A stretch of DNA of 48,309 bases from assembly GCA_013694995.1 (NCBI GenBank), contig JACDBH010000003.1:1-48309 (forward strand), in the 5' to 3' direction. Position 1 is the stretch's first letter. Each line of letters starts with the position of its first letter. The notes under the pieces are model-generated. The model worked only from the letters and a program-made list of their open reading frames with translations. It had not been told where the DNA came from and searched no databases. Source of the DNA: Candidatus Saccharimonadota bacterium. Lineage in GTDB: Bacteria > Patescibacteriota > Saccharimonadia > Saccharimonadales > JACDBH01. A program made the translations under genes and the position numbers. Below are positions 32,703-36,256 of the stretch, piece after piece.

Positions 32703-33077
32703 ATGAGCGACATATTAGTACAAGAAAGAATCAATTATCTTCAAAAACATTATTCTGTGGATATCTTAGCGTCAATGCACCTAGGTTCTGCCTCAGAAAA
32801 AGCAAAAGGTCATGCGCAAAGAGTAAGAGAATTAGCTTTAAAAGCCGGTGGTCTGGTTAGTTTTTTTGTAGTAGGCGAATCATTTCATGAAGATCAGCAC
32901 AAAGCGTTTTGTGATGAAATGGAAATAGATAATAATCTTTTTGAAAGGCACTACCCAATATTGATTAGTACCGATCGGGTGACAGTCCTACACCGTATGC
33001 CTCAGCTTCATGATGAGTCAGAAACTATATACGGCGTGCATTATTATGTGGAGCATATTTTATTTGACAGGGATTAA
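32703..33077 (+). CDS. Hypothetical protein (124 aa)
   Basis: Intact ORF convergent with the tmk-thyX fusion; no recognised motif. Confidence 0.55.
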   Translation: MSDILVQERINYLQKHYSVDILASMHLGSASEKAKGHAQRVRELALKAGGLVSFFVVGESFHEDQHKAFCDEMEIDNNLFERHYPILISTDRVTVLHRMPQLHDESETIYGVHYYVEHILFDRD

Positions 33078-35389
33078 GACAGTTGACTAAGTTTGAACTG
33101 CGTGTAACGTTCGGCCGCTAGGCGGGTTAGCTCCTCGTCTTCGCCTTTGTTTACAAATTTCATGGCTGTAGCAAGCATAGGATGGGCTTCAGCCAGCCTA
33201 TCATGCATCTCTTGTACCAATTTACGATAACCTGGATGCCCTTGAGGACTGGTGCGTAGCTCGTGTAAATGGAAAGCTTCGCGGGCATTATATATAACCT
33301 TCCAGCGCATACGGTGCCCTAAAAGAGTGGCATATTGGGCTTCAAGTTCACAACCTTCAGACTGCATAAAGCTGTATAGCTCGGCGCTTTTATCAAAGCA
33401 TTTCTCGAATAGCTCACTTAAACCCGCCTGTTCTACAAGTTCTGGAATATCAAACCCATAACGGGGTGTCAAGAGCTGCCATTCCATAGCATCCACCATT
33501 CTATGCCTTTGTAAATCCCGAAAAATACCGTAATCACACATCAAATCCCACGAATAATGAGCGGCTTCTAAAGCCCTACCCGGCTTATGTCGTCGGTTCA
33601 ATCGCTCACCAATATAGGTATTGAAAGCATCAAGTTTTTGTTCGTAGTTCCAGCTATTTATTTCTTTTTTTAAGTAATCTAAACTTACGGCGGAGTGTTC
33701 ATATAACATATGTGGTAACAGGTCGAGCTCATTGCGCGGCCAGTAGTCCACTAACTGCACATCGTTATCCATTATTCCTGACGACTGAGGTAATGTTTTT
33801 TCAACCATTTCTTGGACGGCCTTAAATGTGTTAGCGCGATAAGCAATTGTCGCCCCGCCTCTATCTGGCTTATCAGCCCGTTCTAAGAATGTCGGGATAA
33901 TCTTACGGGCTTCTTGCAGCATAGACTCTCCGGTTGTTCTTGCTTCCGGCAGCTCGTCGCTCATAAGATGCATAATTAGATTCTCGAGTGCCTGCCCTGA
34001 AGCGTAAATGCCGACCGTGGATCGAGTTGAAACAGGCAATACTGCTCTAATTGCGTCGCAGGCCTGGGCGCGGGTCGCACCATTAAAAGCAGCATCGCGC
34101 TCCTTTTCTGGCACGTTACTACGATCACGTACATAATCGCTCAATTTGTGCACCATATCAGAATAAATATCAAAAATTTCATCCATCGTTTTTAAGTAAG
34201 TAATCTTTACTTTTTTTGATAAATTCACGGGCACGTGATAACGGTAATGTCCTTCAATGTCCTTCTGGTCAAAATATATATAACGCGTAGACTGTTCAAG
34301 ATATGATGCTAGCCTTCCCCATTCAAGTTTTTTAGTTAGGAGATTGCTAGCGTTCTCAACTACAACATGTAATCCGACTAATTGTTGGACAGAATCATCA
34401 CCGTAGGCTGTTATGACCCGGCTTAAAAGCTTCTCATCCTTACCTAGGCTGGCAGCAAATTCATCTAGAAGTGTTATGCGCATATCGTCGCCGCGGCGTG
34501 AAAGGCGGGCCATTGCGGCAGCAATTGTGGTAGTACTTAACTTATCTGTAAAAGCATATACATCTCCGTCAGTTGATGTAACGGCGTCTGCCAAAAAAGC
34601 CTTACCATCCTCGGTAACGGAATAATTATTATTCTTATCTTTAGTTACATAACTAATTTCTTCCCCGTTTTCCAGCCGTTGCTTTTTATCTTCAATAACT
34701 TCCTTTATAGAAGTAGCTGGGGCTGTCAGGCTGACTTTTGATGCCGCTGCTGCCACTGGCCCACCTGGCGATATTTGTCCATGTAGAGTCTTCCAAATTG
34801 CCTCTGAAACCTTATCGGCTGCGTTACTAGCAAATATAACTGGGTAACCACGTTGTTTGGCTTCCCATAAGTAGCCAGCACGTACTCGCTCCAAAAAACT
34901 TATGTCTAGGTTATCAAATCGTTCACCGGCACTGCGGCCTATGGCTCTTTGGTGCAATACTGATGCCGGTGCATCTAATACTATTGTCATATCTGGCTGC
35001 ATATCGGAGACCGCAAACGCAATTATGCTATTAATGGTTTCATAATCAGGCACATCACCGCGGCCATAGTATTGGATGGCAAGAGTGGTAAGGAAATTGC
35101 GATCACAAAGACATATAACACCTTGATCACGAGCCTTTCTAATAACTTCAAGCGATTGACTGCGTGCGGCGTTATAAAGTAAAACTTCGGTCCGGGTGTT
35201 CATAGGATAGCGCGGATCCTGAGTCAGCATGCGTATAGCACGGGCAGTTAAATCACTTTGTGAATCAGGTTCGCGGAATAAACGGACTGGGTAACCGGCG
35301 ACTTCTAGGCGGTGTGCAAGAATTTCTAATTGCGTGGTTTTGCCAACACCCTCCGGCCCCTCTAGTACTATGTAGCGTCCCCTATTCAT
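33074..35389 (-). CDS. Thymidylate kinase fused to two ThyX-like (flavin-dependent thymidylate synthase) domains
   Basis: N-terminus VLEGPEGVGKTTQLEILAHRL...LCDRNFLTTLAIQYYGRG...TIVLDAP (Tmk). Then YGDDSVQQLVGLHVVVENASNLLTKKLEWGRLASYLEQSTRY and a second domain FRDLQRHRMVDAMEWQLLTPRYGF...LLGHRMRWKVIYNAREAFHLHELRTSPQGH (ThyX-like). Confidence 0.9.
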   Translation of the reverse strand: MNRGRYIVLEGPEGVGKTTQLEILAHRLEVAGYPVRLFREPDSQSDLTARAIRMLTQDPRYPMNTRTEVLLYNAARSQSLEVIRKARDQGVICLCDRNFLTTLAIQYYGRGDVPDYETINSIIAFAVSDMQPDMTIVLDAPASVLHQRAIGRSAGERFDNLDISFLERVRAGYLWEAKQRGYPVIFASNAADKVSEAIWKTLHGQISPGGPVAAAASKVSLTAPATSIKEVIEDKKQRLENGEEISYVTKDKNNNYSVTEDGKAFLADAVTSTDGDVYAFTDKLSTTTIAAAMARLSRRGDDMRITLLDEFAASLGKDEKLLSRVITAYGDDSVQQLVGLHVVVENASNLLTKKLEWGRLASYLEQSTRYIYFDQKDIEGHYRYHVPVNLSKKVKITYLKTMDEIFDIYSDMVHKLSDYVRDRSNVPEKERDAAFNGATRAQACDAIRAVLPVSTRSTVGIYASGQALENLIMHLMSDELPEARTTGESMLQEARKIIPTFLERADKPDRGGATIAYRANTFKAVQEMVEKTLPQSSGIMDNDVQLVDYWPRNELDLLPHMLYEHSAVSLDYLKKEINSWNYEQKLDAFNTYIGERLNRRHKPGRALEAAHYSWDLMCDYGIFRDLQRHRMVDAMEWQLLTPRYGFDIPELVEQAGLSELFEKCFDKSAELYSFMQSEGCELEAQYATLLGHRMRWKVIYNAREAFHLHELRTSPQGHPGYRKLVQEMHDRLAEAHPMLATAMKFVNKGEDEELTRLAAERYTQFKLSQLS

Positions 35390-36095
35390 AGCTTAGGCCT
35401 TTAATTTTAGTCGGTAGGCTTCGTTGATCGCGGTAAGCTTTAGGTAGCATTTGCGCAGGTGACCATGTAGCAATAATAGTTTTAAGATCTGTTCCTGATT
35501 GGTACTTGCCGCTAAAACCATCATTACGACCTTTGCCATAGTTGCCATCTACTTCACCTGTCGTATGGAATACAGCTTGGGCAATACGTTCCCCGACAGG
35601 CAGCACAATTGTCTCGCGCTGATTAAGATTGAATATCTCAAGAGTTAAACGATTGATGTAACCCGGGTCTACCCAACCCGCATCAAAACAGACAGCTACG
35701 CCATTTCGTCCCCAACTCGAGCGGCTTTTAAGTTCATAAGCGCCTGGTGGTTTAATGCCAAAAAACTCATGAGTGTGAGCTAGGATTCGCTCGCCGGGTT
35801 TGAGGGCAATGACTGGATGATCGTCCGGTATATTTTTAAGTGGTTTAATGCCGTTCAAATCACACCAAGATTTATGAGGCATGGCTTCGTATGGGCCGTC
35901 AAAGTAGCGTTCGACATCTTCACGGTCAAAAGGATTGTATAAATTACGTTCATTGGTGCGCTCTACCCGGTAAAAATAGTATCCCAACGTCACATCCAAG
36001 GAGGCGTGGCTAATATGTCTTTCATCAAACGGCGTGCATACAATATGCCCGTCTTTTATAGCCTGGCGTATCTGAATATTACTATATACTCCCAC
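35382..36095 (-). CDS. dcd: dCTP deaminase
   Basis: HASLDVTLG, ALKPGERILAHTHEFFG, LKSRSSWGRNGVAV, AGWVDPGYINRLTLEIFN; SD GAGGTG before a GTG start. Confidence 0.93.
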   Translation of the reverse strand: MGVYSNIQIRQAIKDGHIVCTPFDERHISHASLDVTLGYYFYRVERTNERNLYNPFDREDVERYFDGPYEAMPHKSWCDLNGIKPLKNIPDDHPVIALKPGERILAHTHEFFGIKPPGAYELKSRSSWGRNGVAVCFDAGWVDPGYINRLTLEIFNLNQRETIVLPVGERIAQAVFHTTGEVDGNYGKGRNDGFSGKYQSGTDLKTIIATWSPAQMLPKAYRDQRSLPTKIKGLSYE

Positions 36096-36256
36096 GCAAC
36101 ACCTCACTTATTTCCTACATAGTGTACGGGTTGTCAAATAGCTTACGCAAGTAAACATTCAAGTAGTTTTTACAGCACATCGTGTACTTCGACAAACTGT
36201 CTTACGGCGAGCCTGGGCACCTCGGCCTGCAGGTCATTAGCATAAGCATAAGGGTG

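Follow-up and report, generated by a model that had tools for sequence, protein, structure and literature searches.

The genome analysed here belongs to a member of the Saccharimonadales and is 766 kb in size and 98.75% complete. The window, a stretch of 48,309 nucleotides from contig JACDBH010000003.1, carries on its minus strand a single open reading frame (ORF) of 771 amino acids (33074..35389), free of internal stop codons. Pfam and NCBIfam matches divide it into a thymidylate kinase (Tmk) followed by two regions of FAD-dependent thymidylate synthase (ThyX), referred to below as the N half and the C half. The first-pass annotation had read the same order, a kinase and then two ThyX-like regions in one frame, and Pfam returns Thymidylate_kin and two Thy1 stretches. 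Upstream on the same strand lies dcd (35382..36107, minus strand), encoding a 241-aa protein of the dCTP deaminase family (PF22769, 118.4 bits; TIGR02274, 93.1 bits, only just above the cut-off of 92.8). The last 8 nucleotides of dcd, with its stop codon, are also the first 8 of the fusion, with its ATG (shared sequence ATGAATAG), as expected from the overlap proposed earlier. The interval originally given, 33074-36095, holds the fusion but also takes in nearly all of dcd, and left the strand of the two genes unstated. At the other end, a 124-aa ORF without a Pfam match (32703-33077, plus strand) converges on the 3′ end of the fusion and overlaps it by 4 nucleotides.

The kinase domain occupies residues 9-198 (34796..35365, minus strand). 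It was recognized by PF02223 over exactly these residues (88.8 bits, cut-off 27) and by the equivalog model TIGR00041 over residues 1-198 (101.5 bits, cut-off 83.25). Alignment with the Tmk structure 4e5u shows intact motifs, comprising the P-loop EGPEGVGKTT, REPDSQ, DRNFLTTLAIQYYGRG, the DR(X) motif and the LID region with its arginines. Sequence inspection and comparison of relatives place a linker of about 40 aa (34652..34771, minus strand) after the kinase, which is of low complexity and differs between relatives. The ThyX N half follows at residues 247-510 (33860..34651, minus strand) and the C half at residues 511-771 (33077..33859, minus strand). Together they score 119.3 bits against Thy1 (PF02511, cut-off 24.8) over two stretches, 33890-34531 (65.1 bits) and 33179-33637 (55.2 bits). 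In hhalign comparisons with canonical ThyX, the N half reached an E-value of 3.6e-13 and the C half 7.3e-11. A direct profile-profile comparison of the two halves (16 rows each) gave no useful alignment, and the halves are therefore linked to one another through canonical ThyX and deeper alignments.

To locate catalytic residues, both halves were aligned to solved and phage single-domain ThyX proteins, as the first-pass annotation had suggested, and both map onto the ThyX of Mycobacterium tuberculosis (MtThyX) and of PBCV-1. In the N half, EWGRLASYLEQSTRY (residues 356-370; 34280..34324, minus strand) contains E365, S367, R369 and Y370, equivalent to E86, S88, R90 and Y91 of Thermotoga maritima ThyX (TmThyX). 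R448 (34046..34048, minus strand) corresponds to TmThyX R147 and MtThyX R172 in the MtThyX alignment, and a tryptophan stands at position 357, where the canonical R78 is expected. The C half carries DLQRHRMVDAMEWQLLTPRY (residues 625-644), which opens with DLQRHR (residues 625-630; 33500..33517, minus strand), the left half of the ThyX motif, its R628, H629 and R630 matching TmThyX R78, H79 and R80. Further on, NAREAFHLHELR (residues 701-712; 33254..33289, minus strand) holds the flavin-side motif N-x-R-xxx-H, in which N701, R703 and H707 align with TmThyX N163, R165 and position 169, and also R712, which aligns with TmThyX R174 and PBCV-1 ThyX R182. The right half of the signature thus lies in the first ThyX region and the left half in the second, as had been noted from the motifs alone.

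This partition is conserved across 70 tandem ThyX proteins with a mean pairwise identity of 47% (minimum 28%), a set picked by profile score and so biased towards intact copies. In their N halves S367, R369, Y370 and R448 are present in 70/70 and E365 in 69/70, and the R78 position is held by W, D, E or K and by arginine in none. The other C-half equivalents are lost less uniformly from the N half: N163 and R165 only in part, distant relatives retaining the N and R, and the R174 equivalent is variable, with arginine in 17 of the 70. In the C halves R628, N701, R703 and R712 occur in 70/70, H629 in 68 and R630 in 69. Their S88 position is T in 52 proteins and S in 13, S, R and Y occur together in only 3, and the R147 position is Q in 68. 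As a control, eight ThyX sequences of the single-domain kind were compared, and these hold both RHR and S-x-RY in the same chain. All catalytic residues of ThyX are accordingly found somewhere in the fusion, with R628, R712, S367, R369, Y370 and R448 invariant, and the signature RHR...S-x-R-Y is complete in no single domain. The complementarity of what is kept and what is lost indicates that neither half owns a whole site and that both together own one. This lends support to the asymmetric, complementary sites proposed at first reading, as the losses in one half are residues kept in the other across divergent proteins. The fusion scores 51.6 bits against the ThyX equivalog TIGR02170, under its cut-off of 87.9 (NCBIfam). 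Because it lacks the one-domain signature and falls below TIGR02170 but retains the fold and exceeds the Pfam threshold, we class it as a split-site ThyX variant.

In PBCV-1 ThyX, monomer A contributes Gln75 and Arg182 to a site and monomer B contributes Ser88 and Gln89 (PMC3498832). R174 activates dUMP, and methylene transfer becomes slower on substitution of S88, R90 or Y91 by alanine (PMC8316439); catalytic roles of ThyX residues are also treated in PMC11940539. The alignments support the view that the residue sets kept by the N and C halves would match two different subunits building one ThyX site. For this comparison, R78, R147 and E86 were placed on the subunit sides that we take them to occupy in known ThyX structures. 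An AlphaFold model of the tandem (pLDDT 78, pTM 0.75) has ThyX structures as its top Foldseek matches in the PDB, and a model of the N half alone (pLDDT 80.6) finds MtThyX 3gwc as best match (E 9.7e-6), with modest TM-scores of 0.57-0.59 at best. In both models confidence is low across the N half's catalytic loop (model residues 112-123), which would fit a loop reaching into the site of another domain.

The fusion is the only ThyX match and the only Tmk match in the host genome, and a search for a second Tmk, a second ThyX or a ThyA elsewhere in that genome detected none. The genome likewise gave no match for dUTPase except Dcd itself, below the cut-off, a result that would fit a Dcd able to hydrolyse dUTP as well as deaminate dCTP. 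SHMT, a source of the folate cofactor, was found. Of the 295 genomes sampled across Saccharimonadia, 85 match the tandem strongly (E < 1e-100). Intact tandem ThyX and ThyA are nearly mutually exclusive: a ThyA match is absent from 79 of these 85, strong in 3 and weak in 3. In the other 210 genomes ThyA is found in 163 and gives no match in 47 (Fisher p ~1e-30, uncorrected for phylogeny in a sample much of which is the ThyA-bearing family f35). In each of the three genomes with a strong ThyA match (G148, G194 and G285), only a few kb separate it from the tandem. ThyA lies a few kb from an intact or decayed ThyX fusion on contigs G148:C50, G194:C5, G285:C1, G207:C15 and G240:C1, as if ThyA had arrived locally and then replaced ThyX.

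The survey of the Candidate Phyla Radiation (CPR) recommended by the first-pass annotation showed that the fusion is order-wide rather than peculiar to the host genome. Matches were found in 56 of 61 genomes, the host included, and most of the ORFs span 740-820 aa with the kinase and both ThyX halves. In the class sample, about 66 of the 85 genomes with a strong tandem match have an ORF of at least 737 aa, and a fused copy is present in the complete chromosome CP023991.1. Outside Saccharimonadales, neither the eight strong matches from the rest of the class nor the matches seen elsewhere in the phylum have a frame longer than 641 aa. The kinase fusion, seen in this order only, therefore seems restricted to it, and tandem ThyX is widespread. 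Loci L076-L081 extend tandem ThyX to large plasmids (Euzebya, Parabacteroides, Miltoncostaea, Bacillus, Paenibacillus) and to the Tunturiibacter phage Tunturi_5, the viral distribution being known from phage records only. The Bacillus, Paenibacillus and Tunturi_5 tandems are distant and their motifs differ in places. A restriction of tandem ThyX to the CPR is ruled out by these plasmid and phage copies. Public records name the tandem proteins plainly 'FAD-dependent thymidylate synthase', and our searches of the openly accessible literature turned up no account of a fusion between Tmk and ThyX or of tandem ThyX.

The gene neighbourhood is conserved as well. In most Saccharimonadia loci read, dcd adjoins the tandem or sits one gene away, and in several unfused relatives (L089, L107, L105, L113 and L115) tmk lies directly upstream of the tandem, often overlapping it. 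One cluster (L082 3837-7447, genome G038) holds two kinases, with dcd, a free-standing gene resembling tmk and a Tmk-ThyX-ThyX fusion lined up one after another. The fused N-terminal position itself holds two kinds of Tmk: type 1, found in the window, and type 2 (FPRY.../DRY), which has 25-30% identity to type 1 and is still recognized by PF02223. A long, fully supported branch separates the two on the kinase tree. On the ThyX tree they are intermixed; L010, of type 1, groups there with L033, of type 2, at 96%. Fusion or swapping of the kinase therefore happened more than once, and the quick tree would fit either repeated fusion or domain swapping. The two Tmk types in one slot, the wide spread of the tandem and the relatives with a dead ThyX described next all go beyond the first-pass annotation.

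In a further group of genomes the kinase is joined to a ThyX region that has decayed. Such fusions were found in G240, G165, G058, G298, G316, G054, G207 and G039 (the kinase of G054 is cut at a contig end), as a second copy in G159, G172 and G283, and, in G263, as a similar fragment lying at the end of a contig. The remnant fusions lie at L118 4009-5841, L129 941-3007, L130 1803-3836, L131 1247-3343, L132 1767-3734, L133 1289-3202, L137 1411-3063, L138 1561-3231, L104 7131-9077 and L103 4354-6741, mostly beside dcd. EQSTRY, RHR and the ELR arginine are all gone from them, and Pfam no longer detects Thy1 in the remnants tested. The residues of both halves have been lost together, as a shared site predicts. 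The best-preserved part of the remnant is a C-half stretch near TPRYGYDVP...GHRxRW. ThyA is present in seven of these genomes and a second intact tandem in three (10 of 12 together); in G298 and G263 neither was detected.

We consider it highly probable that the fusion is a bifunctional dTMP synthase/dTMP kinase whose two ThyX halves have split between them the work that a single symmetric subunit did in the ancestor. Canonical ThyX builds each of its sites where subunits meet: the Gln75/R174 side belongs to one monomer and the S88/Q89 loop to another. The C half of the fusion would provide the R78/flavin side only, with dUMP activation via R712, and the N half only S367, R369 and Y370 for methylene transfer. 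With one role per half, the halves are proposed to pair as a pseudo-heterodimer, which could form within one chain or between two. A pair of chains would then have two working sites, not four, plus two degenerate interfaces; the pairing geometry, the number of sites and catalysis are what we infer from the residue partition. The N-terminal kinase would phosphorylate the dTMP product to dTDP, and dUTP or dUMP might be supplied through the product of the overlapping dcd. Channelling from dCTP through dUMP and dTMP to dTDP, raised at first reading, is only plausible and would fit the dcd overlap and the lack of a stand-alone dUTPase match. The accompanying label of a 'dTTP module' is too strong, since a further enzyme is required to turn dTDP into dTTP. 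A broader scenario, which might equally well hold or fail, is that a symmetric four-site ThyX homotetramer became an obligately asymmetric two-site enzyme, with flavin/dUMP binding the speciality of one half and the methylene-transfer loop that of the other, that kinases of different kinds were welded to it more than once, and that dead ThyX was retained as a structural partner for the kinase in lineages acquiring ThyA.

Several other explanations were weighed against this reading. That assembly or annotation merged separate genes can practically be dismissed: most source genomes are metagenome-assembled, and one relative has in-frame stops within its fusion gene, but the full-length ORF recurs in dozens of independent assemblies, including the roughly 66 intact-tandem Saccharimonadia genomes noted above and the complete chromosome CP023991.1, which rules out the artefact named at the outset as a potential objection. 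Relatives at 50-80% identity have the same full-length architecture, and this, together with the invariance of both residue sets in 70/70 proteins, shows that the architecture is not due to chance. The relative with stops (L031 736-3075, genome G035) has two of them in the first part of its N half, representing either a gene split in two, decay or an assembly error. It is improbable that one half alone is catalytic as a homo-oligomer, the other being a structural remnant. Solved ThyX enzymes need only one subunit type and each half aligns with canonical ThyX, but the signature is incomplete in both (no R78 in any of 70 N halves; S-R-Y in 3 of 70 C halves), and invariant catalytic residues in both would be unexpected for a remnant. 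Still less credible is a ThyX part serving solely as a non-catalytic scaffold of the kinase, as it apparently does in some relatives (L118, L129-L133 and L137 encode a kinase with a degenerate ThyX, mostly adjoining dcd). The catalytic residues of the host fusion are intact, its genome has no detected ThyA or second ThyX, and ThyA is found in seven genomes with degenerate ThyX.

A different kind of alternative opposes the channelling idea only and is compatible with a split site shared by the two halves: the site works, and fusion and operon overlap serve only to equalise dosage and to keep a small genome compact, with kinase and synthase as independent beads. We lean towards this view, without great confidence. 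It is favoured by the variable, low-complexity linker, by unfused relatives in which tmk and the tandem thyX are distinct genes that overlap, and by two distant Tmk types in one N-terminal position; interchangeable kinases and a variable linker disfavour a specific kinase-synthase tunnel. On the other side, about 66 of the 85 intact-tandem genomes of the class keep the fused form, and a dead ThyX remnant still attached to the kinase hints that attachment matters for the kinase.

ThyX is a drug target that has been studied as a symmetric tetramer. If the two halves share one site as proposed, its sides would lie on separate, independently mutable domains, making it testable which subunit gives what and whether all four sites are needed, questions that the homotetramer makes difficult to address. 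As the sole detected copy of both enzymes in a streamlined genome, the fusion is also a good natural case for the study of channelling. The Saccharimonadales offer a series from separate genes, to fused genes, to fusions with a dead ThyX and ThyA instead.

The fusion shares with the ThyX enzymes of T. maritima (TM0449, 1o26), M. tuberculosis (3gwc) and PBCV-1 (4fzb/2cfa) the ThyX fold and R78, S88, R90, Y91, R147 and R174. Canonical ThyX holds all of these in one chain of about 220 aa that forms a homotetramer with four equal sites, whereas in the fusion they are spread over two diverged halves. The tandem proteins of about 520-580 aa in other Patescibacteria and on Euzebya, Miltoncostaea and Parabacteroides plasmids have two ThyX halves like the fusion, and those closest to the fusion family show the same partition of residues between N and C halves, but they lack the kinase. 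Plasmids of Bacillus and Paenibacillus, and the Tunturiibacter phage Tunturi_5, have a more distant tandem form, likewise with no kinase. Across all these tandem proteins identity to the fusion falls to 21-39%. Bacterial dTMP kinase (TIGR00041; 4e5u) has the P-loop, DR motif and LID region in common with the fusion, which scores over the equivalog cut-off; in the fusion, however, Tmk is covalently joined to ThyX, and a distant Tmk type takes its place in sister lineages. Protist DHFR-TS is another nucleotide-pathway fusion. So is the baculovirus Tmk-dUTPase (PMC4895240). Both combine consecutive or nearby enzymes of the dTTP pathway in one chain, as the fusion does, but with other partners and without a split-active-site tandem.
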